Origin: Acrocarpospora phusangensis
GTDB taxonomy: Bacteria; Actinomycetota; Actinomycetes; Streptosporangiales; Streptosporangiaceae
Direction: 5' to 3'
NCBI RefSeq assembly: GCF_016862995.1
Contig: NZ_BOOA01000001.1
Location: 62,001-126,000 of the forward strand
Length of the DNA: 64,000 bases
The notes beneath the pieces were generated by a model. It had not been told where the DNA came from and did no database searches. It saw only the letters and a program-made list of their open reading frames with translations. The first letter of the stretch is position 1. The number at the start of each line of letters is the position of its first letter. Shown piece after piece: positions 7,069 through 30,087 of this stretch. Made by a program: the position numbers and the translations under genes.

Positions 7069-8766
7069 ATGACCACGGCTGAGCCGCACCCCCTCCTGCC
7101 CGGCATGCGGTTGGACGACCTGCTGGCCGAACTCCGTACCCGTCTGGAAGCCGTGCTGGCCACCCGGGACCGGGTGCACGCCCTGCTGGAGGCGGTGGTT
7201 CTGATCGGCGGCGACCTGAAGCTGGAGACGGCGCTCCGCCGGATCGTGGAGACCGCCGCCCGGCTCGTCGACGCCGGCTACGGGGCGCTCGGCGTGGTCG
7301 GCGAGGAGAACACCCTGGTGGAGTTCATCCCCGTGGGCCTCAGCGAGGAGGAGATCGCCCGCATCGAGCACTGGCCGCACGGCCTGGGCCTGCTCGGCCT
7401 GCTCATCAAGGAGCCCGTGCCGCTCCGCCTGGCCCGCATCTCCGACCACCCCGGCTCGTACGGCTTCCCGCCCGGCCACCCTCCGATGGGCTCCTTCCTG
7501 GGGGTGCCGCTGCGGGTCCGCGAGGAGGTCTTCGGCAACCTGTACCTGACCGAGAAGCGCGGCGGCGGCGAGTTCGACGAGGAGGACCAGGCCGTGGTCG
7601 TCGCCCTGGCGACCGCCGCCGGCGTGGCCATCGAGAACGCCCGCCTGTACGAGGAGACCCGCCGCCGCGAGATCTGGCTCCAGGCGTCCGCCGAGGTCAC
7701 CACCGGCCTGCTGTCGGGCGCCGGCCCGCTGGAGGTGCTGACGCAGGTGACCAGGCGGGTGCGCGAGATGGCCGACGCGGACGCGGTCACGCTGCTGTTC
7801 CCCGCCGGGGACTCCCTCCAGGTCATGATCTCCGACGGCGTGGACAACGCGATGGACGAGGCCGTGGACGGCGTGGAGGTCGCGATGGCCGGCTCGCTGC
7901 CCGGCCGCGCGTACACCAGCGGCCTGCCCCAGATGGTCAGCGACCTCGCCGCGGGCGGCCCCTCCGTGATCGAAGGGCTGCCCGCCGGCCCGGCCGCGGC
8001 GGTGCCGCTCGGCAAGCCCGGCTCGGTGCGCGGCGTGCTCGCGCTCGGCAAACGTCCCGGCCGGCTGCCCTTCACTCCGTCGATGCTGCGCATGCTGCAC
8101 TCCTTCGCCGACCAGGCCGCGCTGGCCCTGGAGCTGGCCGAGGCCCGTCAGGACGCCGAACGCCTGGGGCTGCTGGAGGACCGCGACCGCATCGCCAGGG
8201 ACCTGCACGACGTGGTCATCCAGCGTCTGTTCGCCACCGCCATGACGCTCATGAGCACCCTGCGGCTGATCGAGCGGCCGGAGGCCGCGGGCCGCGTGCA
8301 GCACGCCATCGACGAACTCGACGAGACCATCCGGCAGATCCGCTCCACCATCTTCGCGCTCCAGTCGCCGCAGCTGCCGGACGAGCCGAGCCTGCGGGCG
8401 CGCGTCGTGGAGCTGGTCGAGGGCGCCCGCAGCCATCTGGGCTTCATGCCGGGGCTGCGGATGGAGGGCCAGCTCGACCACGAGGTGGGCGAAGCGGCGG
8501 CCGAGCACCTGCTGGCGGTCCTGCGGGAGGCGCTGTCGAACATCGTGCGCCACGCGAAGGCGTCCAAGGCCACGGTGGCGGTGGAGGTGAGCGACAGGAC
8601 GCTCAGCCTGACCGTCCAGGACAACGGGGTCGGCCTGCCGCCGGGCGCGCGCCACAGCGGGCTGCGCAACATGGGCGAACGGGCCACGGAGCTCGGCGGC
8701 CGTTTCGCCGCCGAGCCCGCGCCGGACGGGGGCACCCTGCTGCGGTGGAGTGTCCCGGCCGGTTAG
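7069..8766 (+). CDS. devS: DevS/DosT-like two-GAF sensor histidine kinase
   Basis: 565 residues, no transmembrane segment. Two tandem GAF domains (about 55-195 and 215-350) are followed by a HisKA_3 dimerisation domain with the phospho-acceptor His380 in ARDLHDVV, and an HATPase domain with NIVRHAKAS and DNGVGLPPG. The first GAF contains HPPMGSFLGVPLRVRE and FGNLYLTEK, strongly reminiscent of DosS/DosT, whose first GAF binds haem and senses O2, NO or CO. Haem binding here is by analogy. It should phosphorylate the DevR-like regulator, whose gene is convergent and ends four bases away, unlike the devR-devS operon of mycobacteria. Confidence 0.88.
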   Translation: MTTAEPHPLLPGMRLDDLLAELRTRLEAVLATRDRVHALLEAVVLIGGDLKLETALRRIVETAARLVDAGYGALGVVGEENTLVEFIPVGLSEEEIARIEHWPHGLGLLGLLIKEPVPLRLARISDHPGSYGFPPGHPPMGSFLGVPLRVREEVFGNLYLTEKRGGGEFDEEDQAVVVALATAAGVAIENARLYEETRRREIWLQASAEVTTGLLSGAGPLEVLTQVTRRVREMADADAVTLLFPAGDSLQVMISDGVDNAMDEAVDGVEVAMAGSLPGRAYTSGLPQMVSDLAAGGPSVIEGLPAGPAAAVPLGKPGSVRGVLALGKRPGRLPFTPSMLRMLHSFADQAALALELAEARQDAERLGLLEDRDRIARDLHDVVIQRLFATAMTLMSTLRLIERPEAAGRVQHAIDELDETIRQIRSTIFALQSPQLPDEPSLRARVVELVEGARSHLGFMPGLRMEGQLDHEVGEAAAEHLLAVLREALSNIVRHAKASKATVAVEVSDRTLSLTVQDNGVGLPPGARHSGLRNMGERATELGGRFAAEPAPDGGTLLRWSVPAG

Positions 8767-8769
8767 CCG

Positions 8770-9411
8770 TCACTCGCCCCGGTCGGCGCGCATCCGGGCG
8801 GCCAGCGCCGCCGCCTGGGTCCTGCGCTGCATGTCGAGCTTGTTCAGCAGGTTGGACACGTAGTTCTTGACGGTCTTCTCGGCCAGGAACATGCGCTCGC
8901 CGATCTGCCGGTTGGTCAGCCCTTCGCCGATCAGCTCCAGGATCTGCCGCTCCTGCTTGGAGAGCGCGGCCAGGGGATCCTTACGCGCGGCCTGCTCCCG
9001 CAGCCGGGTCAGCATGGTGGCGGTGGTCTGCGGGTCCAGCAGCGACTGCCCGGACGCCACCGTACGGACCGCGCCGACCAGGTCGGACCCGTGGATCTGC
9101 TTGAGCACGTAACCGGCGGCGCCGGCCATGACGGCCTCGAACAGGGCTTCCTGGTCGGCGTACGAGGTCAGCATGAGGCAGCGTAATTCGGGCAGGCGGC
9201 TGCGGACCTCGCGGCAGACCTCCACCCCGTTGCCGTCCGGCAGGCGCACGTCCAGCACGGCGACATCGGGCCGCAGGGCGGGGATGCGGGCCAGCGCCGA
9301 CTCGGCGGTCCCGGCTTCGCCGATCACCTCGATGTCGTCCTCGACGTCCAGCAGCGCGGCGACACCGCGCCGTACGACCTCGTGGTCGTCGAGGAGAAAA
9401 ACACGAATCAT
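8770..9411 (-). CDS. devR: DevR/DosR-like NarL-family response regulator
   Basis: 213 residues, close to DosR (217). The receiver domain has acidic residues D8/D9, phospho-acceptor D54 (VLDVRLPDG), T82 and K104 (YVLKQ). The C-terminal LuxR-type HTH contains LTNRQIGERMFLAEKTVKN and RRTQAA, nearly the DosR recognition region. It should bind GGGAC-N4-GTCCC palindromes when phosphorylated; a perfect copy lies in its own promoter region at 9446-9461, consistent with autoregulation. It is transcribed convergently with the DevS-like kinase. Confidence 0.9.
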   Translation of the reverse strand: MIRVFLLDDHEVVRRGVAALLDVEDDIEVIGEAGTAESALARIPALRPDVAVLDVRLPDGNGVEVCREVRSRLPELRCLMLTSYADQEALFEAVMAGAAGYVLKQIHGSDLVGAVRTVASGQSLLDPQTTATMLTRLREQAARKDPLAALSKQERQILELIGEGLTNRQIGERMFLAEKTVKNYVSNLLNKLDMQRRTQAAALAARMRADRGE

Positions 9412-9445
9412 GCCAGAAATGTAAGCTCCGTCGTATCTGTCCGAC

Positions 9446-9461
9446 AGGGACCTTGGTCCCT
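9446..9461 (-). promoter_or_regulatory. DevR/DosR box at the DevR-like promoter
   Basis: AGGGACC-TT-GGTCCCT is a perfect 7-bp inverted repeat around two bases and matches the DosR core GGGAC-N4-GTCCC exactly. It lies 35 bases upstream of the regulator's ATG, a position suited to autoactivation. Confidence 0.75.
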
Positions 9462-9504
9462 ATCCCCCACAATCGTGTCACCACGAGGGGGCCGCGCGCA
9501 GCAA

Positions 9505-9624
9505 CGCCTCGCGGACGAGGAACCCCGGGCTCCGCACGTGGTGTCGGACCGCAACCTCCGCACCGGCCAGAACCCGGCCTCCTCGGCCGCACTGGCCGTC
9601 GGCCTCCTGAAGGCTCTTGCCTGA
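9505..9624 (+). pseudogene. C-terminal remnant of a DJ-1/PfpI-type amidotransferase-like gene
   Basis: In one forward frame the short translation HVVSDRNLRTGQNPASSAAL and the tail up to the stop at 9622-9624 resemble the C-terminus of DJ-1/PfpI (Hsp31-like) proteins, where VVxDxNLxTGQNPASS is common. There is no start, nucleophile elbow or upstream domain, because the sequence immediately before is the DevR-like promoter. I read it as a decayed gene end. Confidence is limited because only about 40 residues remain. Confidence 0.5.
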
Positions 9625-9630
9625 GGCGGC

Positions 9631-12171
9631 TCAGGAGCCGGTCACGCGGGCCAGGCAGGCGATGGCCCAGTCGTTCTCGCCCGCCGCCTGGGCCGCCTCG
9701 GCCAGGCGGCGGTCCGCGTCGGGCAGCCCGGCCGCGAGTGCCAGTTCCGCTCCCGCGGCGCGGGCGTACGGCGCCGGCCAGCCCGTGGCCGTCTCCGCGA
9801 ATGCGCGCGTGACCAGCTCCGCCGCGTCCTCGAAGGCACCCGCGTGCACGGCCACGCGGGCGTCCACGAAAGCGGCGAAAACCGCAGCGTCGGGAGTAGG
9901 CGCGAACCTCCCGGTGCCCAGGACACGTTCGGCCCGGCCCTGCCACAGCCGGTACGCGGCCCGGTCGCCGGTCAGGCCGTACGCGAGTGCCACCGCGGAG
10001 GCGGCGGGCGAGAGCCAGGCGGCGACCGGCATCCCGGAACGCCGCCACGCGTCCCACATGGGCTGGGCGTGCTCCAGCGCCTCCTCGAACCGCCCGAGCA
10101 GCACCAGCGGCGGAACCAGCTTGGCCGCGGGCCGGTACGGATGCCCGCCGAGCAGCTCGTCTCCGGCGATCCGCTCCGCCGTGTCCAGCGCCCCCTCCAC
10201 GTCCCCGGAGGCGAACGCGCACAGCCAGGCGTTGTGGAAGGCGTCCAGGATCTCCGCCGCCGACGCCGGATGGCGGCGGTCCATCGCCTCCACCAGCGCC
10301 AGCCGCTCCCCGGCCACGCGGTACGCCTCCCGGAACCTGCCCGCGCGGATCGCCAGCGCGGCCGGCATGTCCAGGGCGGCGCTGACGAGCACGGGGTCGC
10401 CGGTGGCGCGTGCCGCGGCCACGGCGACCACCGCGAGCGACGGGTCGGGAGACGTCAGGGGTGCGCGGGGACACCAGGCCTCGGCGATGGCCAGGTGGGC
10501 GGCCGTCACCGGGTCTCCGCTGCCGTCGGCGGCCCGATCCACCAGCTCGCGCAACCGCTCGAACGGGATCGGCTCGGGGAAGCCCGAGGTGAACCTGCGC
10601 GCCGTGGCGACGGCGTGGGCGAGCGCGCGGGCCCCGGACTCGCCCGCCGCCTGCGCCTGCGCGGCGGAGTCGAGGAGCAGGTCGTACGCCCCCCGGGCCA
10701 GCCCGACCGCGAACACGACCTGGGCGGCGGTGGAGAGGTCCTCGGCGGCGGCCGACGCGGTCGGCGCGTGCCGGGCCGCCTCCTTGAAGTGCTCCAGGGA
10801 CTCCCCGGCCGAGTGACGGGCGTAGGACAGGTGGCCGAGCGCGCGGGCGAGCCGGTGCGGCAGCTCGCCGGGACCCTGCGGCGCGTTCCGCAACGCCGCG
10901 CGCAGATCGTCGCGTACGGCGTCGAACCGGTCCCACTCCGGGCCAGGGTCATCCGCCAGCGTGTGCGCGGTCTCGGCCGCCCACCGCAGGTGCAGGTCCC
11001 TGACCTCGTCCAGGTCGCCGCCGGCCGCCAGCCGGTCCAGGGCGTACGCGCGGACGGTCTCCAGCAGCCGCCACGAACCCGCGTCGTTCTCCCGGACGAC
11101 CAGGCTCTTGTCGACCAGCCTGCCCAGCACGTCCGCCACCGCGCCCGGGGCGACTCGGCGGGCGGCGTCGAGGTCGAAGGATCCGGCGAAGACGGCCAGC
11201 CGGGGAAAGAGTTGCCTTTCGTCCTCCGCGAGCAGGTCGTGGCTCCACGCGATGACCGTACGCAGGGATCGGTGCCGCTCGTCGGGGTGGCGGCTGCCCG
11301 CCAGCAGGCGGAGCGCGTCGTCCAGCGCGGCCAGCAGGCCCTCCGCGCCCAGCGAGGCGCAGCGGGCCGCGGCCAGTTCGATCGCGAGCGGCATACCGTC
11401 CAGCCGGGCGCAGATCTCCGCGACGGTCGCCGGGGCGGCCGTGAAGGCCGGATCGACGGCGGCCACGCGGTCCGCGAACAGTGCCTCCGCGTCGGAGGCC
11501 AGCGGCAGCGGCGAGACCGGCACCACGCGCTCGCCCGGCACGCCGAGCCGTTCCCTGCTGGTGGCCAGGACGGTGACGTCCGGGCACTGGGCCAGCACGC
11601 GGTCGGCCAGGGCGGCGACGCCGTCGAGCACGTGCTCGCAGTTGTCCAGGACCAGCAGCCGCCGCTCCTGCCCGAGGGCGCACACCACGGCGTCCGCGAG
11701 CGTCTGGCCCGGCGACTCGCCCACGCCGAGCGCCGCCGCGACGGCGGCGGCCACGTGCTCCTCCCGCACCGGGACCAGGTCCACGAACGCGCCGCCCAGC
11801 GCCGCCGCGGCGGCGACCGTCGCGGCCAGCCGGGTCTTGCCGACGCCGCCGGGGCCGGTCAGCGTCACCAGCGATCCGGGGCGCAGCATGGCCAGGACGG
11901 CGTCGCGTTCGTGCGCCCGCCCGACGAACCCGGTACGCCAGGACGGCGACCCGGTCATCCGCTGGACCGCCGGGGCGTCGTCCGCCTGCCTGGCGATGGC
12001 GGCCAGGGCGCGGCGGTCGGCCACGCCGTACTTGCGCAGGAGCGAGGAGACGTGGTTCTCGACGGTCCGTACGGAGATGTGCAGGCGGCCCGCGATCTGC
12101 ACGTTCGACAGGTGCGCGTCGAGCAGGGCCATGACCTCCGCCTCGCGGGGCGACACCGACTCCGGACTCAC
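9631..12171 (-). CDS. LuxR-type regulator with N-terminal HTH, NB-ARC-like ATPase and TPR-like repeats
   Basis: 846 residues. A LuxR-type HTH is at the extreme N-terminus (about 5-60; LSNVQIAGRLHISVRTVENH). Next come an AfsR/NB-ARC-type ATPase with Walker A GPGGVGKT (106-113) and Walker B LLVLDNCEH (172-180), then a long alpha-helical, TPR-like C-terminal half. Most LALs and NarL-type regulators carry the HTH at the C-terminus, so the order is reversed. It is a signal-gated activator or repressor of unknown target. I chose GTG at 12171 because the HTH begins at once after it; the downstream ATG (MALLDAHL) would cut the HTH. It lies between remnants of other genes, so its original neighbourhood is lost. 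Confidence 0.8.
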   Translation of the reverse strand: MSPESVSPREAEVMALLDAHLSNVQIAGRLHISVRTVENHVSSLLRKYGVADRRALAAIARQADDAPAVQRMTGSPSWRTGFVGRAHERDAVLAMLRPGSLVTLTGPGGVGKTRLAATVAAAAALGGAFVDLVPVREEHVAAAVAAALGVGESPGQTLADAVVCALGQERRLLVLDNCEHVLDGVAALADRVLAQCPDVTVLATSRERLGVPGERVVPVSPLPLASDAEALFADRVAAVDPAFTAAPATVAEICARLDGMPLAIELAAARCASLGAEGLLAALDDALRLLAGSRHPDERHRSLRTVIAWSHDLLAEDERQLFPRLAVFAGSFDLDAARRVAPGAVADVLGRLVDKSLVVRENDAGSWRLLETVRAYALDRLAAGGDLDEVRDLHLRWAAETAHTLADDPGPEWDRFDAVRDDLRAALRNAPQGPGELPHRLARALGHLSYARHSAGESLEHFKEAARHAPTASAAAEDLSTAAQVVFAVGLARGAYDLLLDSAAQAQAAGESGARALAHAVATARRFTSGFPEPIPFERLRELVDRAADGSGDPVTAAHLAIAEAWCPRAPLTSPDPSLAVVAVAAARATGDPVLVSAALDMPAALAIRAGRFREAYRVAGERLALVEAMDRRHPASAAEILDAFHNAWLCAFASGDVEGALDTAERIAGDELLGGHPYRPAAKLVPPLVLLGRFEEALEHAQPMWDAWRRSGMPVAAWLSPAASAVALAYGLTGDRAAYRLWQGRAERVLGTGRFAPTPDAAVFAAFVDARVAVHAGAFEDAAELVTRAFAETATGWPAPYARAAGAELALAAGLPDADRRLAEAAQAAGENDWAIACLARVTGS

Positions 12172-12287
12172 CCGCCTATCTGACCATAGGTACCCGTTGA
12201 GTGGTGAATGCGTGGTGGCCACGGATGCCGCCCCCGGCGGGCCTGGCCAAGACTGATGCCACGACGAACGGGAACGAGGCGAGACCA

Positions 12288-12698
12288 GTGACTGGCGGAG
12301 TACTGAACGTCGCGGCGGCCACCCTGCGCTACCTGTCCCACGGCCACGGCGCCCCCGTCCTGCTGGTGCACACCGCGACCGCTCCCAACGCCGTCCTGCA
12401 CACCCTGCCCGCGCTCCCCCGGGACCTGTGGGCGCCCAGCCTGACCGCGATCTGGACCACCACCGCCGCCATCTTCTCCGCGTACGCCCCAAGGGACGCC
12501 GCACCCCCCGAAACCCTCCCGGCCCCGCCGTCCGACTCCGACACCGTCGCCGACGCCCTGGACCGGGCCGTCGCCCACGGCGACGAACACGTCATCAAGT
12601 TCACCGACACCGCGGCCGAGGTCTACACCCGCACCGACCACCCCGGCGCACTGGCCGCCACCGTCCGCGCCACCCACCTCATCCCGTCCTCCCGCTAA
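12288..12698 (+). pseudogene. Truncated questin oxidase-like protein (C-terminal part only)
   Basis: An open frame of 136 codons starts at GTG 12288. The translation matches the C-terminal part of actinobacterial questin oxidase-family proteins: ATLRYLSHGHGAPVLLVHTA, LPALPRDLWAPSL and AHGDEHVIKFTDTA. Family members are usually about 350-400 residues. The N-terminal two-thirds are missing and the upstream sequence shows no trace of them. It may still be translated, but is probably a relic. It is followed by another fragment in the same orientation, pointing to a deletion-prone region. Confidence 0.6.
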
Positions 12699-12939: not shown

Positions 12940-15900
12940 TCAGGCCAGATCGTCCCAACCCCACGGCTGTGCCTCAGTGCCGTCGGGTTCGCGGCCGAAT
13001 CGATACCGGCTTTCCACGCGAGGTAGCAGGTGAAACAGACCGGCGGGGGATAACCGTTCCGCCAGAATGCGCACTTGATCAGGCTGGCCGGTACGAGTCA
13101 GTCCGTCCAGCAGCTTGGCGACCGCGTGAATATTGCCCAGGGGAAAATTCACCGCGACCCGGGTCGACAGCGTGCGCAATGGTCCGTGCATTTCCAGCCT
13201 GAACAAACGGTTCAGTAACTCCACTACGGCAAACGGGTCATCGAGAGCGGCGTCCGTGGCGGCCCGCTCCGCCAGTACGCGAACCGCGGCGTCGGCATCC
13301 ATACCCCGGAGTTTGTTTATCAGCTCGATCACCGCGGACAGATTGTCGAGCGGCACGTGTGCGGCGGCCCGCTCGGCGAGCATGTGCGCCTGTTCCACCG
13401 CGCCCGCGCCTCGCAGTCGCACGAGGAGTTCCTCGACAGCAGGTTGATCGTCGAGCGGGAAATACGCGGCGGCCCGGGAGGCGAGCACGTTCATCTGACT
13501 GTCGGCGCCCATGCCGCGCAGCGCCACCAGCAAACCGGTTATCGCCTGGAGATCGTCAAGGGGACCATCGGTGATGGCGCGTTCCGCCAGGGCGTGCACC
13601 AGATCGTCGGCGTGCACCGCTCTCAGCACGACGAACAGCCGCGCGATCGCTGACATGTCGGCCAATGACACCTGGGCGGCGGTACGTTCGGCCAGCACCC
13701 GCGCCAGATCCCGATGCCCCATGTCGCGCATGGTCAGCAACAGCTTGGCGACGGCGACGGTGTCAGCAAGAGACCCACGAAGTGCGGTTTCCTCTGCCAG
13801 ATGGCGCGCCAGGCCATGAGTGCCAACCCCGCGGAGGCCGCCGAGGTAGCCGATCACAGCGGGCTCGCCCTGCCCGATGACATGAGCCGCGACCCGTCCG
13901 GCCAGAGCCCTGGCCTCCTCGGCCGCACCCGCATCCCACAGCCTGTTCAGCGCGTTGCTCACCGCCCGGGAGTCGTCCAGAGACACGTTCATCGCGCGCA
14001 GAGCCAGAAGCCGAGCGTTCTCGGGCACGCCCGCGTCCCGTAGCGCCGTGACCACCTTGGCGATCGCGGACCAGTCATCCAGGGGTATCCTCGTGGCGCT
14101 CTCGGCCAGCACACTGATCAGATCGGTCGCCCCGATGGTGTGCAGTCCCGCCAGCAATCTGGCCATGGTGTGCGGATCGGCACCCGTCGATGCCCTCACC
14201 ACGGCTGCCCCGGCCAGTGCTCCTAGCGCGTCGGACATCTCCACCCCGCGCAGTTTCATCAGCAGGCCCGCTGTCATGTACGGATCCTCGTGCGGGAAAT
14301 TCGTGATCACGCGCCTGGCCAACGCCTGCATCTGCTCGTTCGCGCCCACCACACGCATCCCCGCCAGCAACCGGGTGACCTCCGACTGCTCGGCCAGCGG
14401 GAACTCCCCTGCCGCCCGGTCTGCCAGCGTACGCAGGTGCTCCGCCGCTCCCGACCGCTTCAGTCCGGCCATCCATCGCACCAGAGCCGCGGCGTCACCG
14501 AGCGGAGCATCCCGCACCACTCGCTCCGTGAGGACCTCACCTGCCGTACCCAGTCCGTAGATCTTGACGAGCAGAACAGCCAGCGCGTTCAAGTCGTCGA
14601 GCGGAACCACCTTGACGACCCGCTCGGCCAGTCTGCGCGCCAAGTTGGCCGTTGCCCCGCGACACGAGGCCGCCAACCACACCGCCACCGCCGCCGCATC
14701 ACCGGTAGACGCATGCTCAGCCACCCGTTCCGCCAACACATACGCCGATACCTCCATGCCAGATACATGGAGTTCCATGAATAGGTCAGTAATGGCGTTC
14801 AAGTCGTCGAGCGGGACCTTCGTGACGGCCCGTTTGGCCAACCGGTGCGCTGAGTCTGTCTCTCCCCTCTCCCGGAAGGCCGCCAGCAGAGCCGCCGCAT
14901 CGGACGGATCGTCGAACGAGAGGCTCGCGATGGCCCGATCGATCAGCACTGCTGTCCACTTTTGGGCACCCGTGACCCGTAGCTCGCGCAACAAGTCCGT
15001 CAACGCCGACGGATCGTCGAGCGGCGCATATGCGGCCGCTCGTGCTGCCAGCGTGCTCGCAGATCCATATCCGTCGACATTCCGGAGCATTTCGATAAGC
15101 CTCACGACTGCCGGAAGATTCGACAGCAGTACGCTTACGGCGGCTCGATCCGCCACCATGTGAAGCAGCTCATGGGCCGCCGCGACCGAAAGTTTGGCCA
15201 GAATGCCAGTCACATTGGCCGGGTCGTCGAGCAGACTGGTCCTGGCAACCCGCTCCGCCAATGCCCGGGCGAGAACGCCGCCCCCTATCCTCTCCAGTCC
15301 CACCAGCAGATCGGCCACCTTGGACCGATCGTTCAGCGAGGCGCTCATGGCGACCCGCTCCATCAGCACCAGCGCCTGATCGATCGCGCCGAGCTGCTCC
15401 ATGCTCGCCAGCAGCTTCACCGCCTTTGCCGGCTCATCGAGCCCGATCGTCGAGACGATCCGCTCCATCAGCCTCTGCGCCTGCTCCGCCGCACCCACCT
15501 GCTCCAGGCTGGCCAGCAGTCTCGCGGCGTCATGGGGATTCTTCAAGCGGGCGTTCCGGGCGCCACGCTCGGCCAGAACCTTCGCCTGTTCCACCGCGCC
15601 GACGCGTTCCAGCCCGGTCAGCAGCCCTGCCACGTCTGATGGATCCTCGACGGAAACCTCCGTGGCCACGCGGTCGGCCAATGCGTGCACCAGGGCGTTC
15701 GCTCCGGAGAGGCGCAGGTCATCCAGCAGCTGGATCACAGCGGAGAACTCATGGAGCGGAGCTTGCGCGACAGCCCTTTCCGCCAGCAGACGCGCTCGGT
15801 CGGGAGAGCCCATGCGGCGCAGCGTGACGATCAAGTCATCCACCATGGCCAGGTCGTCCAAGCCCACCTGCGCCGCCGCCCGTTCAACCAGCAGCCGTTC

Positions 15901-17916
15901 ACCCACTCCTATCTCGCGAAGCCGGACCAGCAGCGCGGAAACGGCGGACGAATCGTGGACAGGGACATGCGCCGCCACTCGCTCAGCCAGGAGACGCGCG
16001 GACAATCCGGGCACATCTCGAACTCTGGCCAGCAGTTGCGCGACAGCGGGCGCGTGGTCCAGGGCAACCTCGGCCGCGGCTCTCTCGGCCAGCTCCCGCA
16101 CCTGCTCATGCGCCCCGATTCCCTGCAACCCGTCCAAGAGCTCGATGAGGGCGGCGGGGCTGTCGACAGGAGCGTCCTGCGCCACCCGATGGGCCAGATC
16201 CTCCAGCCCCGTACCTGCGATGGCCCGCCCTCGCTGCCTCATCAGCAACCGGGCCAGCGCGTACGGATCATCGAGAGCGACGTTCGCGGCGACCCACACG
16301 GTGGGGCGCTGGTCCGCCGGATCGATCAGGTCAAGGACCTGGAGCAGCCGATCGGCCGCCACGGTGTCACCGAAGTCGGCCGCGTATTTGTAGAACTGAG
16401 CAGCGGCCTGGTAAAGCCCACGCTCGAAGGCGGCGACGCCGAGATTGGCCAGGTCCTTCGGATTGGCGTGAGCGGCCAGCGCCGCCCAGAATTCGCGCGG
16501 AGGGATCTGGTCAAGGCGATGCCGGCGGCCGTACTGGTCCAGATAGTCGGCAAGTCGGTACAGATTGTCTTCCGCTTGCGGCGCTGTGGCGTCGGGTGAC
16601 CCCGGCCGGTCTCTCCGGACCAGGGATGGCCTGGTGCGCGATCGAATCCGTGTGATGGGGCCGCGCACGCCTTTGCACGGGGTGGCGCAGTAAGCCAGGG
16701 CCTGCTCCAGCCAGTCCTCGCCCAGCGCCTCCCATTCGTTGTCGGCGAGGTAGGCCGGTGCTGCGGATTCCAGTAATCCGAGCGGCAATGCGTATCGGTG
16801 GCCCATACGCCGGGCGTCCATGGCCACGTGGATCATCGCCCGCACCACGGGGGTGGCATTGCGATAGCGGGCCAGCAGTTCCGGTACCCCGGCCAGATAC
16901 TGCGCGAGGCGACCGTCTTCTGCTTCGGCCATGGCCTTGGCCAGCCGGGCGTCGGTGGCGGCAGCCCGATCCAGCGCATTCGTGGAGACGCTGCTGAAAC
17001 TGCCCGGAACGGTGATATCCGTCCCTGAGAGGATCACACGGGCTTGCGCGTGCCGATCAAGGGCACCGCGGGGCACCGGACGTGTCAGCGTGTCCCAATG
17101 CTCCTGCCACAACGTTCCGAGCACCAGCACGGGAGCCGAGCTCCGTTCCGTCAGCAATGTGTGCAGGGCGGCTGCGACCCGCTCCCCGATATCTCCGGAG
17201 GTCTCCAGGTAGAACTGCGTCTCGTTCAGCCAGACGACCGTGCGCGGGCCCACGCGCGGCAGTTCGGCCAGCGCCGCCTCGGGACGTGTCGGGTCGAAGG
17301 GATGCCACAGCCGCCATCCTCCTCGCCTCCGCAACGCGCCGATGGCTTCCCAGCATGCGCGCGTCTTCCCGGTCGACGACCCTCCGACCAGCACCGCCAT
17401 CGCGCTTTGCCCGGACAGCACCCTGCCGACGACTCCCGCGAGAACGTCATCGTGGTCACGCCATATGTAAGGCGGTAGCGCGATGCTCCCCTCGGGAGGC
17501 GAGTCGTCGAGATCGATCGGTCTGTGGACCTCCAACGTGAACGGATCCGTCACCAGCTCCAGAGGTCGGCCTACCGACGTCTGGACCTGCTCCGACGCGA
17601 CACCGGCGCGAACGCTTTCATCCGCGCGGATACGGATGGACCACTCCACCCCGCTCAGCGTCCGCTCCCCGGCCCAGGCCGCCAGCGCATTGCCGACCGC
17701 GACTAGCTGGTCCAGGTCGCGAGGGAAACTCGACCCCGTCGCCCACGAGTTCAATGTCGTCGGCGGCACTTCCGACGCGTCCGCCACCCGCTTCTGCGTG
17801 AGCCTGTTGCCTTTACTCGCCTCGCGGTTCTCCGCCTGATCCCACAGTCGAGCCAATTCCGCGAGAACCACCGACCCCGCATACGGTCCCGAGACAGGGC
17901 GGAAGGGCCTGGCCAA
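12940..17916 (-). CDS. Giant HTH-ATPase protein with about thirty 35-residue helical repeats
   Basis: 1658 residues, not assigned to a named family. The N-terminus (about 35-85) resembles a Cro/XRE-like HTH (RLTQKRVADASEVPPTTLNS). A linker LEVHRPIDLDD...LPPYIWRDHD, common before NTPase modules in actinobacteria, leads to a P-loop GGSSTGKT (178-185) and a Walker-B-like VVWLNE (227-232), where Asn-Glu replaces the usual acidic pair. After about residue 570 there are about 30 tandem units of close to 35 residues with the pattern LAERAAxxxPLDDxxAVxxL and LxxLRxxGAxEQA. These should form a PPR/TPR-like solenoid. The C-terminus ends EAQPWGWDDLA. The start is TTG with AAGGAGG seven to eight bases upstream. 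A STAND-like sensor or defence role is inference. Confidence 0.85.
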   Translation of the reverse strand: MARPFRPVSGPYAGSVVLAELARLWDQAENREASKGNRLTQKRVADASEVPPTTLNSWATGSSFPRDLDQLVAVGNALAAWAGERTLSGVEWSIRIRADESVRAGVASEQVQTSVGRPLELVTDPFTLEVHRPIDLDDSPPEGSIALPPYIWRDHDDVLAGVVGRVLSGQSAMAVLVGGSSTGKTRACWEAIGALRRRGGWRLWHPFDPTRPEAALAELPRVGPRTVVWLNETQFYLETSGDIGERVAAALHTLLTERSSAPVLVLGTLWQEHWDTLTRPVPRGALDRHAQARVILSGTDITVPGSFSSVSTNALDRAAATDARLAKAMAEAEDGRLAQYLAGVPELLARYRNATPVVRAMIHVAMDARRMGHRYALPLGLLESAAPAYLADNEWEALGEDWLEQALAYCATPCKGVRGPITRIRSRTRPSLVRRDRPGSPDATAPQAEDNLYRLADYLDQYGRRHRLDQIPPREFWAALAAHANPKDLANLGVAAFERGLYQAAAQFYKYAADFGDTVAADRLLQVLDLIDPADQRPTVWVAANVALDDPYALARLLMRQRGRAIAGTGLEDLAHRVAQDAPVDSPAALIELLDGLQGIGAHEQVRELAERAAAEVALDHAPAVAQLLARVRDVPGLSARLLAERVAAHVPVHDSSAVSALLVRLREIGVGERLLVERAAAQVGLDDLAMVDDLIVTLRRMGSPDRARLLAERAVAQAPLHEFSAVIQLLDDLRLSGANALVHALADRVATEVSVEDPSDVAGLLTGLERVGAVEQAKVLAERGARNARLKNPHDAARLLASLEQVGAAEQAQRLMERIVSTIGLDEPAKAVKLLASMEQLGAIDQALVLMERVAMSASLNDRSKVADLLVGLERIGGGVLARALAERVARTSLLDDPANVTGILAKLSVAAAHELLHMVADRAAVSVLLSNLPAVVRLIEMLRNVDGYGSASTLAARAAAYAPLDDPSALTDLLRELRVTGAQKWTAVLIDRAIASLSFDDPSDAAALLAAFRERGETDSAHRLAKRAVTKVPLDDLNAITDLFMELHVSGMEVSAYVLAERVAEHASTGDAAAVAVWLAASCRGATANLARRLAERVVKVVPLDDLNALAVLLVKIYGLGTAGEVLTERVVRDAPLGDAAALVRWMAGLKRSGAAEHLRTLADRAAGEFPLAEQSEVTRLLAGMRVVGANEQMQALARRVITNFPHEDPYMTAGLLMKLRGVEMSDALGALAGAAVVRASTGADPHTMARLLAGLHTIGATDLISVLAESATRIPLDDWSAIAKVVTALRDAGVPENARLLALRAMNVSLDDSRAVSNALNRLWDAGAAEEARALAGRVAAHVIGQGEPAVIGYLGGLRGVGTHGLARHLAEETALRGSLADTVAVAKLLLTMRDMGHRDLARVLAERTAAQVSLADMSAIARLFVVLRAVHADDLVHALAERAITDGPLDDLQAITGLLVALRGMGADSQMNVLASRAAAYFPLDDQPAVEELLVRLRGAGAVEQAHMLAERAAAHVPLDNLSAVIELINKLRGMDADAAVRVLAERAATDAALDDPFAVVELLNRLFRLEMHGPLRTLSTRVAVNFPLGNIHAVAKLLDGLTRTGQPDQVRILAERLSPAGLFHLLPRVESRYRFGREPDGTEAQPWGWDDLA

Positions 17917-18097
17917 GAGTGCCCTCCTTCACCCGGCACGATCCGACTCGCATCCCTCCGGATCTCCCCCTGAAATGGAGTTTAACTACCGCGATCTATC
18001 TCGGATACGGAATGCCTGGGATCGGCGGGTGACCCGAGCTGCCATGGTGCCGACCGCGACACAAAACGCTGGCCATCACCCCGAAGGGACAACAGCA

Positions 18098-18370: not shown

Positions 18371-18398
18371 TTGACATATCTCCCGGCATCCCTAGCAT
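18371..18398 (+). promoter_or_regulatory. SigA-type promoter of the DUF574 methyltransferase
   Basis: TTGACA (18371-18376) and TAGCAT (18393-18398) with a 16-base spacer form a near-consensus primary-sigma promoter. The predicted start of transcription is near 18405, giving a leader of about 95 bases. The rest of 18221-18499 holds no gene that I can support. Confidence 0.6.
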
Positions 18399-18499
18399 CG
18401 CTGCACTGGACGCTTCTGGCGAATGTGAGTTTCGCCGTGGTCGTGCCCAGTTCGCTGATGAGGGAGAACCATGCACCACACGTACGCCGGGGAGCGCTT

Positions 18500-19348
18500 A
18501 TGACCGATTTCGAGGACGCCCTGCCTCCGGCGCGTGACGAAGTTCCCGCCGGGCGGATCGATCCGACGATCCCGCACCCGGCTCGCATCTACGACTATCT
18601 GCTGGGCGGCAAGGACCACTTCGTGTCCGACCGGGAGGCGGCCGAGCAGTTGCTCAAGGTGTCGCCGGGAACGCGGGAGGGTGTGCGCGCCCACCGCGCC
18701 TTCCTCCGCCGGGCAGTACGGCATCTGACCGCAGAGGCGGGAATCACCCAGTTCCTCGACATCGGGACGGGCATCCCCACGCAGGGCAACACCCACGAGA
18801 TCGCCCAGAACGTCAACCCGTACGCACGGGTGGCGTACGTGGACAACGATCCGATCGTGCTCGTTCACGGGCGGGCGCTGCTGACGGGCACCGAGACCGG
18901 GATGACCACGGTGATCGAGGCGGATCTCCGCGAGCCGGACGTGATCCTTTCGCACCCCGGGGTACGGCAGGTGATCGACTTCTCGAAGCCGGTCGGCCTC
19001 ATCCTGGCCGGCGTCCTGCACTTCCTCACCGACGACGAGAACCCCCACCGCCTCGTCGACTACTGCAAGGCGGCGGTCCCCTCCGGCAGCCACCTCCTGC
19101 TCTCCCACATCACGCTCGACTTCGCCCCCAAAGTCCAGCGGCAGGACCTGAGCAAGCCGTACGAGAAGGGCACCGCCCCCATGGTTCCCCGCACGCACGC
19201 CGACGTGACACGCTTCTTCACCGGCTGGGAACTGATCGAACCCGGCCTCGTCGAGGTGGTCGACTGGCACCCGGACGAGGACGAGTACCAGGAGCCCATC
19301 CCAGGCGGCCACGCCTGGGCGTACGGCGGAGTCGCCGTCAAGCCTTGA
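18500..19348 (+). CDS. DUF574-type SAM-dependent methyltransferase
   Basis: 282 residues, typical of this actinobacterial family. The N-terminus IDPTIPHPARIYDYLLGGKD is the family hallmark. FLDIGTGIPTQGNTHEIAQN is the SAM-binding glycine-rich loop, YVDNDPIVLVHG the next acidic strand. Members are highly multiplied in streptomycetes and relatives, often next to HTH or conservon-type regulators, with substrates unknown. The ATG at 18500 has GGGGAG seven bases upstream; an in-frame ATG 45 bases upstream is possible. It has its own strong promoter. Confidence 0.9.
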   Translation: MTDFEDALPPARDEVPAGRIDPTIPHPARIYDYLLGGKDHFVSDREAAEQLLKVSPGTREGVRAHRAFLRRAVRHLTAEAGITQFLDIGTGIPTQGNTHEIAQNVNPYARVAYVDNDPIVLVHGRALLTGTETGMTTVIEADLREPDVILSHPGVRQVIDFSKPVGLILAGVLHFLTDDENPHRLVDYCKAAVPSGSHLLLSHITLDFAPKVQRQDLSKPYEKGTAPMVPRTHADVTRFFTGWELIEPGLVEVVDWHPDEDEYQEPIPGGHAWAYGGVAVKP

Positions 19349-20019: not shown

Positions 20020-20091
20020 GTTACGTCATCGACACGAGTCGAGATTTATCGGCAGGCGCCGGCCGCCGAAAGGGCCTGTGGCCAGGTGTTA

Positions 20092-22472
20092 ATGAGTGAA
20101 TGGGCAGGAATGACAAGCGACGGTGGATCGACCAAGAAACTCGGGCGGGGTGGCTCGAACCCGAAGGGCGTGACCCGGCCGGACCCGGCGGGCGTGCCGC
20201 CGGAATTCCGCCCGTGGGCCGAGCTCTCCTGCCGCTTGTACGACGAGCTGTACGCCACCCACCCCGACCGACCGGGCGTCAACGAACTCGCCCAGGCGAC
20301 CAGGTACGCCGGCGCCACGATCTCCTACGTCTTCTCCGGCCGCCGCACCTACAGCTGGCAGGTCTGCCGGGCGATCGTGCGCGCGCTCGGCGGACGCCCC
20401 GGCGAGTGGAAGGCGCGCTGGGACGCGACCGCGCGCCGCCACCGCGACGAGGCGAAGCTGCGCGGGCTGCTGCCGCTGCCCGGCTTCGACCAGGACGGCG
20501 GCCCGGACAGCGCCCCGCCCGACCGGGCCGTCGGCGACTGGCGCTCACCGGGGAAGCCGCCGATCAGGCGCGTGTCCCGATGGCCGGCACGCCTCGGCGC
20601 GGTCGCGTTCACCGCCGCGCTCGAAGCCACGCTGGTGATGCTGGCGTTCACCCTGCCCGCGCCCGGCTCGTATCTCGCCGGAGCCTCCGCCGCCGCTCTC
20701 GCGGCGCTGCTCGGCCGCTGGTGGCTGCGGCGGCGCGCGGACGCGACCCACCGGCAGCGGCTCAAACTCCTGAGAAAAGTCCGCGAGAGGGCAGGAAAAG
20801 ACGCCGCCCGCGCGGAGGAGCATTTATATCTGATTCCCCGGTTCACCCTTCTGCACGAGGAAGGGAAAAAGCGCGGGAGCCGTCCGGAACTGGCCAGGAC
20901 GGATACCGACGTGACCGATATCCGGGTGCTTTTCGAGCAGGGCGGCGACGAGCTGACCCTGCTGGCCGACGCGGGCCTCGGCAAGTCCGCCCAGTTGGCC
21001 AAGCTCGCGACCGTACTCGCCGAGGAGGCCATCGCGGAGCTGGAGGCCGAACCGGGCTTCGCGCAGCGCCCGCTGCCGGTGCTGCTGCATCTGGCGACCT
21101 ACCGGGGCGAGGAGTTCGCGGACTGGATCGTCGCCGAGGTGCACCGCGCCTACGACGACTTCCCCGAGCAGCTCGTCCGGGGCTGGCTGGCCGAGGACCT
21201 GCTGCTGCCGATCCTGGACGGTCTCGACCACGTGCCCGCCGCGCACCGGCGGGAGTGCGCCGCGCAGATCGCGCGCTTCCGGCGGTCGGCCGCCGGGCTG
21301 GCGCTGAGCTGCCGCGTCCGCGACGTGCAGCTGGCCCTCACGGTGGACACGGCGCTCTGCGCCGAGCTGGCCAGGCCGTCCAAGACGGACGTGCAGGAGT
21401 ATCTGGTCGCGAACCCGGGCGGGCTGCAGCCGGTCCACGACGCGCTGAAGGCCGACACCAAGCTGTGGCCGCTGCTCCAGTCGCCGCTGATGCTGGACAT
21501 CATCCGCCTGACGTACACCGGCCGTTCGGCCGACGATCTCCGCCGTCCCGGCAGACCCGCCGAACGCCGCGAACGGATCTTCGACACCTATGTCGCGGAA
21601 CGGCTCAAGGGGCACCCCGATCCGTACCGGGCGCTCGGGGCTCTGACCTTGCTGGCCCGCAAGCTCGGCGAGCGCGACGAGCAGGTGCTCTACCTCGACC
21701 GCCTCAATCTGGACTGGCTGCCCCCGGCGGCGCGGAGGGCGCCGCGCATGGCCACGACCGGCGCGACGACGATCACGATCTGGGCGCTGGCGATCTGCTG
21801 GATGGCGGTGGCGCTGCGGACCGGCGCGGTCACGGGCAGCCTCCCCGACGTGGCGCTGCTCGCCTGCGCCACCATCGTGGTCACCCTCTGCCAGCTGCTG
21901 GTCGGCGAGCGGGTGGCCGAGCAGCAGGGCAAGTCGAGGCCGGGCGTGGCCGTCGCCTACAACATCCCCGCCATCCTGGTCGGCGGCGTCGTGCTCCAGC
22001 GGATCGACTGGGGCTCGCAGGCCGTCACGCTGGCCGTGCTCGTCGCGGCCTGGGGCTACATCAGCACGCTGGAAGGCTCGTTCTCGACGACGCTCCAGCC
22101 GGTGGAGCGGCTGCGGCGGCGATCGTCACCCTCGCGCTGCTCCTGCTGGTCGCCGCCGCCACCGGCCGCCTCGACACGACCTCCGCCTGGCTCCTCGCCG
22201 GCCTCTTCGCCGGCCTGTACGGCCTGGCCCGCGCCTACCGCTACGGCGGCCTCGCCCTGGTCCAGTACTGGGGCGTACGGCTGTCGCTCGCCCGGCTGGG
22301 CGGCGTGCCGCTGCGCTACCTGCGCTTCCTGGAGGACGCCGAGCACCGCATCCTGCTCTACCGCACCGGCAGCGGCTTCACCTTCCCGCACCGGATGATC
22401 CAGGAGCACCTGGACATCCCCGCCGGGGAGCAGGCGCTGGACCGGTTCTGGAAACGCCTGCCGCCGCCGTGA
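20092..22472 (+). pseudogene. HTH-NACHT NTPase with membrane segments, interrupted by a -1 frameshift near 22105-22122
   Basis: The N-terminal part (about 35-125) is XRE-like (VNELAQATRYAGATISYVFS). Next come two hydrophobic segments (about 168-208), then a NACHT ATPase with Walker A ADAGLGKS (292-299) and Walker B LLPILDGLDHV (371-381), and several C-terminal membrane segments. In the first frame the protein reads well to LQPVERLRR, then becomes meaningless to a stop at 22398. The true continuation (IVTLALLLLVAAATGRLDTT to FTFPHRMIQEHLD) is in the next frame and stops at 22472. Restoring one base in the repeat CGGCGGCGA gives a 793-residue protein. A real mutation, assembly error or programmed -1 shift are all possible. 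The start is taken as ATG 20092. Such NACHT proteins are candidate immune or death effectors. Confidence 0.75.
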
Positions 22473-29156: not shown

Positions 29157-29504
29157 TCACAGCTTGCCGACGAGGGCCACTATCAAGGTGGCGACGCCGG
29201 TTTGGACGGCGGTGAGGATTGCTTCCTTGGCGCCGCCAGCGATGGCTGTGCCCAGGGCGCGGAGGCGGCCCGGCTCGGATTCGACGGCGGCGACCACGGC
29301 GGCGGGGTCGGTGACCGTGCCGTCTGGTGTGACCGCGCCGGTGCGGGTCAGGGTGGTGATGAAGGCGCGTAGTTCGGCGACGGCGGCGTCGATCTCGGCG
29401 CGGGAGGCTCCCTCGCCGGAGTTGTTGACCGTGATGATGCTGCCGGAGCCGTGCTGCACGTAGCTGTCGCGGCCGACGCTGGTCCCGTATACGTAGTCGG
29501 GCAT
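29157..29504 (-). CDS. Small protein with GRDSYVQHGSGS motif
   Basis: 115 residues, unrecognised. The N-terminus YGTSVGRDSYVQHGSGSIIT resembles the C-terminal end of the upstream gene product (ARDKYEQRGADSRITVNG). A helical middle region (AEIDAAVAELRAFITTL) is followed by a hydrophobic C-terminal segment (TAVQTGVATLIVALVGKL) that could be a membrane anchor or pore-like helix. The start is ATG 29504 with GAGG eight bases upstream. It is ten bases downstream of the DUF6232-like gene and surely cotranscribed. The organisation suggests partners or an effector and its carrier; this is inference. Confidence 0.65.
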   Translation of the reverse strand: MPDYVYGTSVGRDSYVQHGSGSIITVNNSGEGASRAEIDAAVAELRAFITTLTRTGAVTPDGTVTDPAAVVAAVESEPGRLRALGTAIAGGAKEAILTAVQTGVATLIVALVGKL

Positions 29505-29514
29505 TTCGTACACC

Positions 29515-30087
29515 TCATCCGTTGACGGTGATGCGGCTGTCCGCGCCGCGCTGCTCGTACTTGTCCCGGGCGACCTTGTCGCCGAGGACCAGGTCGCCGC
29601 CGACGTGGACGATGCGCTCCTGATCGGGCGGGTCCTCGATGGCGCTGACGATCTCGCCTTCGATCCGGTGGATCTCGTCTCTGGCGGTGCCGGAGAGGGC
29701 CGTGAACTGGGTGCCGGCCGTCTCGATCACCAGGGCGTACCGGCGGCGGCGGAAGATCAGCCGGTAGAGGAGCAGTCCCAGCAGGTACACGATCCGCACG
29801 CCGCCCAGGATGGCCGCGCCGGTCGTGAACTGGCCGGCGGCCTCCTCCAGGTTGAATCCCGCGTCCACGTCCAGTTCCGGCAGGGCCACGTACGCCGCCG
29901 CCGCGAGCGCGCCGACCAGCGCCAGGGTGACCGCGATGCCCTTCAGCGGGTAGAACGTCGCCGACCGGCCGCTCCACACGAGCCGCAGGGTCCGTACCCG
30001 CGAGATGTTCGCCAGCGGGTACACCTCATGCCCGATCCGGACGACCCGCTTGCTGATCCGGATCTCGCCTACCTGCCGCTTTCCCAT
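29515..30087 (-). CDS. DUF6232-like membrane protein with C-terminal GD-RDKYEQRG motif
   Basis: 190 residues. The N-terminal EIRISKRVVRIGHEVYPLAN is the pattern I associate with DUF6232, a family of unknown function common in actinomycetes. Two hydrophobic segments are near 50-68 and 94-112, followed by a cytoplasmic region containing VIETAGTQFTALSG. The tail HVGGDLVLGDKVARDKYEQR shares a motif with the N-terminus of the next gene product. It is the first gene of a two-gene operon and is divergent from the large polytopic protein at 30254. Confidence 0.75.
   Translation of the reverse strand: MGKRQVGEIRISKRVVRIGHEVYPLANISRVRTLRLVWSGRSATFYPLKGIAVTLALVGALAAAAYVALPELDVDAGFNLEEAAGQFTTGAAILGGVRIVYLLGLLLYRLIFRRRRYALVIETAGTQFTALSGTARDEIHRIEGEIVSAIEDPPDQERIVHVGGDLVLGDKVARDKYEQRGADSRITVNG

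Follow-up and report, generated by a model that had tools for sequence, protein, structure and literature searches.

The present study analyzes a gene for a protein of 1658 amino acids in a window of 64,000 nucleotides (the whole stretch of DNA analyzed) from Acrocarpospora phusangensis. The protein is probably a one-gene, NLR-like (STAND-class) sensor ATPase in which a C-terminal repeat array binds a ligand, a central switch signals, and an N-terminal module is the output, and this product of a soil actinomycete looks like a bacterial cousin of the immune receptors of plants and animals. The patterns behind this reading are the domain order (HTH-type bundle, AAA+/STAND switch with GSSTGKT, WLNE, and GxP, 30 repeat units, conserved tail; Table 1), the motifs of the switch, the swapping of N-terminal modules, and, in relatives, a labile array and position-specific variation of its units. 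In the resting protein an ADP-bound AAA+ switch would be kept off by the C-terminal superhelix; binding of a ligand, probably a protein, to one face of the repeat array would trigger nucleotide exchange and oligomerization, and output would follow through the N-terminal module, an HTH acting on DNA in the window protein and TIR, EAD1, or trypsin-like domains in relatives. From the patterns listed we infer autoinhibition, oligomerization, ligand class, transcriptional output, and a possible role in conflict or against phage.

Domain organization and the switch

The open reading frame is real: AAGGAGG lies six nucleotides upstream of the TTG start, and a PFRP start followed by ELARLWDQ is common to the window protein and three relatives (L033, L106, and L082). 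The preliminary description had reported a frame of 1658 residues with 35-residue repeats, and frame, period, motifs, and tail all confirm it. Pfam gave AAA_16 alone, below threshold, an NCBIfam scan gave nothing at cut-off, and PADLOC-DB 2.0.0 gave 0 families at E 1. Pfam, NCBIfam, and PADLOC had no match at cut-off for the actinobacterial family to which the protein belongs, and a literature search returned no paper that we recognized as describing that family.

Table 1. Features of the gene and its product, in order along the window (residues are those of the 1658-residue protein).
Feature	Window position	Strand	Basis
Whole gene	12940..17916	-	1658 aa, TTG start
Conserved tail RFGREPDG..PWGWDDL, residues 1631-1658	12943..13026	-	Family comparison
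30 PPR-like units of 33-36 residues, residues 587-1630	13027..16158	-	Self-similarity, profile, PDB profile matches, model
Helical entry to solenoid, residues 480-586	16159..16479	-	Model helices; weak TPR_2, E 0.15, at 488-513
Helical lid and probable winged-helix part of switch, residues 305-479	16480..17004	-	Model; some ORC/Cdc6 alignments
GxP motif (GVP), residues 343-345	16882..16890	-	G 88/91, P 86/91
AAA+ nucleotide-binding domain, residues 141-304	17005..17496	-	Model and fold matches
Walker B VVWLNE, residues 227-232	17221..17238	-	W229 92/92; N231 87, D 5; E232 87, D 5
Walker A GGSSTGKT, residues 178-185	17362..17385	-	G183, K184, T185 in 92/92
HTH-type helical bundle, residues 16-82	17671..17871	-	Model helices 16-34, 41-48, 52-60, 68-82; HTH_3 E 0.004 in L033
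Ribosome-binding-type AAGGAGGG upstream of TTG	17922..17929	-	Read directly from sequence

Conservation in the switch was counted over 92 aligned cores (alignment A5; 91 for the GxP columns). The P-loop of STAND NTPases is present, with G183, K184, and T185 invariant, and Walker B is a hydrophobic run followed by N (87 of 92) or D (5) and then E (87) or D (5), a variant N-E form whose Asn is found family-wide. After the nucleotide-binding domain comes GxP (G343 and P345), and ahead of the P-loop R153 is conserved in 92/92. A motif hhGRExE before the P-loop has been named for STAND NTPases (PMC4581296); the site here reads Y-h-x-R-x-H-D (R 92, H 84, and D 91 of 92), which, judged by its residues, is related to hhGRExE but is not the motif, and this alteration is a point against the NLR-like reading. 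The core model (pLDDT 92.9) matched SAMD9 in Foldseek at E 3.0e-6 (tied best) and ORC/Cdc6 at E 3.0e-6 and lower in the ranking than first place, while NRC3, an NLR of plants, came at rank 48 (E 1.2e-4); some of the ORC/Cdc6 alignments run through the lid and winged-helix part, the compared set spanning mostly model residues 1-203. For a model of residues 1-840 the best match was SAMD9 (E 1.8e-7), and the STAND-TPR protein 6mfv matched at E 3.3e-6. A core profile had 0 matches among PDB sequences at E 10. The HTH, the P-loop with Asn-Glu Walker B, and the 35-residue solenoid described earlier are upheld by model helices, the alignment of 92 cores, and fold matches, and the earlier proposal of a STAND-type sensor is supported by the core fold matches and switch motifs.

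The N-terminus of the window protein had no Pfam match of its own at E 0.01, and its assignment as an HTH-type bundle draws on the model and on the relative L033, which has a weak HTH_3 match and shares 56% identity with the window protein over the N-terminus. HTH is also the commonest N-terminal Pfam match in the family (HTH_31 in 13 and HTH_3 in 10 of 89 relatives scanned). Among the same 89, TIR_2 (L090), EAD1 (L057), and Trypsin_2 (L051) were found in one relative each, at E 2.7e-35, 1.9e-9, and 1.6e-7 when the full proteins were scanned, and these heads and the differing HTH heads all sit on one switch core. N-termini vary even among close relatives: the supported clade of five rows that includes the window protein (97/91) has four kinds, as judged by eye, with N-terminal ends set mechanically at the first start after a stop and possibly too long. 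A combination expected of STAND proteins, C-terminal superstructure-forming repeats with a swappable N-terminal effector, is found in the family.

These patterns are consistent with the STAND NTPases or NLR-like conflict receptors of multicellular actinobacteria, in those parts of Kaur et al. 2020 (PMC7159879) and 2021 (PMC8195603) used for the comparison. Shared are the AAA+ switch with GxP, the C-terminal superstructure-forming repeats, an N-terminal module that can be exchanged (TIR, EAD, trypsin-like, or HTH), and occurrence in multicellular actinobacteria, and in the same portions of the 2021 account HTH modules in TRADD-N conflict proteins are taken to indicate a transcriptional response (PMC8195603). 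The present family differs from the receptors covered there in its Asn-Glu Walker B, its altered hhGRExE, its own C-terminal tail, and its PPR-like units, where theirs are TPR, HEAT, or WD. The SAMD9 family, as characterized in the part of Mekhedov et al. 2017 (PMC5445408) drawn on here, has a GGT/S P-loop with AlbA, Sir2-like, and OB domains and is known in actinomycetes; it resembles the window protein in a STAND-like P-loop plus helical repeats and as the top Foldseek match of the 1-840 model. Against the features given in that part, membership in SAMD9 is ruled out, with GKT in 92/92 cores and AlbA, Sir2-like, and OB domains absent from the Pfam scan of the window protein.

Distribution, surroundings, and alternative functions

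The family is actinobacterial, patchy, and often plasmid-borne. A core-profile scan of species genomes gave 438 encoding stretches, from which 79 loci were retained, and the titles listed were actinobacterial save for one metagenome-assembled genome labelled Bacillota; the member on that Bacillota-binned contig (L042) is nested among actinobacterial ones, which suggests probable misbinning. With the window genome itself included in each count, the family is present in 13 of 41 relatives and in 5 of 296 genomes from across the phylum. Among 72,556 plasmid records 86 carry a member, and 75 of these 86 are Streptomyces. Such patchiness speaks for the NLR-like reading. The window genome itself holds a paralogue (contig C42, 50% identity over 109-731) and a remote member (C50). 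None of 50,697 phage records had a match to the family, and among viral contigs one of 104 pattern-matching stretches, on a single IMG/VR contig, encodes a relative (L112).

Two types of C-terminus occur: 41 members have PPR-like arrays, each of at least 5 units, and 38 were assigned by rule to a second type, with TPR/Sel1-like or other arrays. Array type tracks the core tree loosely, with 7 changes of the PPR-like label, at least 6 of them forced by supported branches, in a tree whose 10 incomplete rows inflate the number of changes. The tail is a family feature: a PW.WDDL-type motif was found in 37 of 41 relatives with PPR-like arrays compared with 2 of 677 control stretches. Of the four relatives that lack it, one lies on a cut contig, one has a masked stretch there, one has the motif further in, and the last has a near match. 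Among the 38 members with the other array type, 25 have a looser form of the pattern. In one locus (L032:5355-7613 and 8367-10517) two remote members are adjacent, with TPR arrays and an N-terminal GGTHN..GDVHG motif.

On one side of the gene is a LuxR-type ATP-binding regulator (9631-12504, -), which has GerE (6.3e-13) and AAA matches and is thus a second HTH-switch protein alongside; on the other side is an S-adenosyl methyltransferase (18371-19348, +, PF04672 2.7e-102). G+C is 0.66-0.68 over 12-20 kb and 0.70-0.77 either side, up to 30 kb. Congeners share a histidine kinase at about 7.0-8.8 kb (three) and a response regulator (two; 7.0-9.5 kb overall), one of several kinase copies having been used in 3/4 genomes, and the rest of window positions 1-45 kb had no match in the congener stretches compared; with only the kinase and at times the response regulator shared, the surroundings of the gene are variable. 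Two kilobases away, two overlapping frames (20086-22472, +) are perhaps a frame-broken HTH-NACHT gene, the first matching HTH_31 (E 0.0039) and NACHT (E 0.0066) weakly and the second resembling the C-terminus of a NACHT protein, and the homologue in one congener (G004) likewise has stops. Farther along (29157-30087, -), a short protein with a GRDSYVQHGSG motif and then a DUF6232 protein (6.2e-20) apparently form one operon.

No conserved partner gene was found among 629 neighbour genes of 92 loci, the largest cluster being an ABC ATPase at 8 loci, with genes called by a GC-by-codon-position filter that misses the 12940-17916 gene itself. This counts against the NLR-like reading, and neighbour clustering also failed to find the MoxR-vWA partners of the conflict receptors in the parts of the Kaur et al. 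papers compared. PADLOC at E 1e-10 matched 5 families (6 member matches) in 98 neighbour genes, these being 98 of the 147 immediate neighbours, and 34 families in 98 control genes, counts that are not like for like because one control protein matches many PD-T4-6 kinase models among the 25 of 34 control families listed. An argument from a defence island was dropped, the neighbours having no PADLOC enrichment over controls, and this too is a point against the NLR-like reading.

A dedicated anti-phage receptor (Avs-like), which would kill or arrest the infected cell, is possible but on balance unlikely. The STAND switch, the swapped TIR, EAD1, and trypsin-like modules, and carriage on plasmids are all consistent with it, but the protein matched no PADLOC model at E 1, its neighbours are not enriched, the window copy has an HTH and not an enzyme, and no phage record has a relative that would hint at counter-use. 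The same PADLOC results give no support to the earlier suggestion of phage defence or developmental signalling. An alternative explanation, less probable still, is an ordinary HTH-NOD-repeat regulator of development or secondary metabolism with no conflict role, in which the switch, depending on its ATP and ligand state, would free the HTH for target promoters. Its model is AfsR (SARP-NOD-TPR), where, in the portion of the AfsR account used here (PMC10936776), the NOD and TPR parts keep the DNA-binding part inhibited as long as ATP is not bound; this restraint is also a precedent for the NLR-like switch proposed here. The order of DNA-binding head, NOD switch, and repeats is as in AfsR so described, and HTHs predominate among N-terminal Pfam matches; however, no SARP domain was found in the window protein (Pfam, E 1), which has an XRE-type bundle and a PPR-like array instead, TIR, EAD1, and trypsin-like domains sit on the same core, no fixed target operon was found alongside at 92 loci, and the patchy occurrence and diversified repeat copies are unlike a housekeeping regulator.

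The repeat array and its variation

For residues 521-1630 the mean BLOSUM62 self-similarity reached 0.645 at a lag of 35 and 0.570 at a lag of 70. Over lags 20 to 119, 500 shuffles of the same region gave a mean of -0.716 with sd 0.064 and never exceeded -0.427. A 35-column profile picked 26 units in the window protein and 0 units in 50 shuffles, and two longer intervals (102 and 103 residues) contain two further units of 33-34 residues apiece, giving 30 units over 587-1630, a count that is partly circular because the profile was trained on the family of the window protein. Structure prediction, proposed earlier as a check of the repeat region, gave helical units up to residue 840, the extent of the model.

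The repeats are nearest to PPR repeats by sequence, and TPR superhelices rank as high by fold. The PPR repeat is known mainly from eukaryotic organelles, and its base-specifying residues stand at unit positions 5 and 35. Its hallmark, a tandem 35-residue two-helix unit, is present, and the match in sequence is in register. A profile of three-unit stretches (A4, from 28 of 46 stretches) had 23 matches to PDB sequences at E <= 0.1, of which 21 were named PPR and two were not, RESC6 (RAP domain; 1.7e-8) and a designed "alpha solenoid protein". Natural PPR matches were PPR10 (0.0013), mL102 (0.0022), and LRPPRC (0.017); E-values for designer PPRs sum over copies, with single-stretch i-Evalues of 0.17 to 16. 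As a control, a relative with the other array type (L025) matched a designed fusion and a Sel1 protein but none of the PPR proteins, and L112 matched 15 designed PPR or alpha-solenoid chains. Pfam PPR models had no match to the window protein at E 1, and among curated TPR/Sel1 models the array had none, the TPR_2 match of Table 1 lying before it. By fold, Foldseek placed TPR superhelices (OGT, consensus TPRs) above designed PPRs for the 1-840 model; the PPR likeness claimed earlier has its support in the sequence.

A PPR-type nucleic-acid sensor, whose array would wrap single-stranded RNA or DNA and thereby trigger the switch, is very improbable: 21 of the 23 profile matches carry the PPR name, D or N stands at position 35 in 301 of 497 family units, and the variable positions include 2 and 35 (below), but 5/35 code pairs occur in just 5 of 26 window units and 13% of the 497, the array is acidic (pI 5.72; the family median is 5.41 for 46 arrays, a set that includes five duplicates and one array at 9.5), and TPR superhelices rank higher in fold. 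RNA reading by the array is unlikely because the base-reading pair is mostly lost and the array is acidic, and it was dropped as the main reading; from known pentatricopeptide repeat proteins the present one differs also in being switch-fused and bacterial.

In the NLR-like reading the array is the sensor, and its history differs between the window protein and its relatives. The units of the window protein are old, as had been claimed, with mean pairwise identity among 26 units of 31% in amino acids and 48% in DNA and a best DNA pair of 66%; the claim does not extend to the family, in which 16 of 41 related arrays (at least 6 units) hold a pair at least 90% identical in DNA. Between species (one genome each) the number of units runs from 6 to 20 in the 41 arrays. 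Young copies were compared in 235 same-subtype unit pairs whose DNA identity was at least 80% but below 100%. The pairs come from 25 of the 41 arrays, are non-independent, and, where nearly identical, can be distorted by short-read assembly. Amino acid differences peaked at position 2 (0.61), 6 and 9 (0.54), 3 (0.49), 35 (0.44), and 10 (0.43), and uncorrected pN/pS was 1.16 at 2, 3, 6, 9, and 10 and 0.54 elsewhere. When the top five positions were taken from half of the arrays, the held-out ratio averaged 2.28 (minimum 1.46, 500 splits), and the observed top-five mean of 0.479 exceeded the maximum of 0.389 in 2000 position shuffles. Helix A occupies about unit positions 1-13 in the model, which by helical geometry would put 2, 6, 9, and 13 on one side. 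In the old array of the window protein positions 17 and 30 are the most variable, with 10 ranked 3rd, 9 4th, 2 9th, 6 12th, 35 17th, and 3 25th; on this ranking a special variable face is not evident there, and this lack of clear position bias is a further point against the NLR-like reading.

Fungal NLRs have highly conserved TPR, ANK, or WD repeats that are polymorphic in number, with positive selection at concave-face positions, according to the part of Dyrka et al. 2014 (PMC4986451) compared here. The present family resembles the fungal proteins of that part in having nearly identical repeats inside one gene, differing numbers of repeats, and diversification at few positions, seen here in relatives and between species and not in the window protein; it differs in being bacterial, in its PPR-like units, and in a variable side placed by helical geometry. 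If the NLR-like reading is correct, actinobacteria own a receptor family that diversifies its sensors by copying and varying short repeats, the process described for fungal NLRs being carried out with PPR-like units, and the family would allow repeat-based diversification of receptors to be studied in a tractable bacterial model and possibly supply a scaffold for programmable recognition. A stronger form, modular recognition, is improbable: through residues 2, 6, and 9 (and 35, 3, and 10) each unit would contact a single element of a peptide or nucleic acid ligand that is repeating or extended, and duplication and shuffling of units would re-aim a bacterial NLR much as in fungi, with swappable outputs at the other end.

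In three arrays (L112, L040, and L054) units of 35 residues (LAERAAAH) are mixed with units of 36 (LL.R.PAAH), the two alternating in places.
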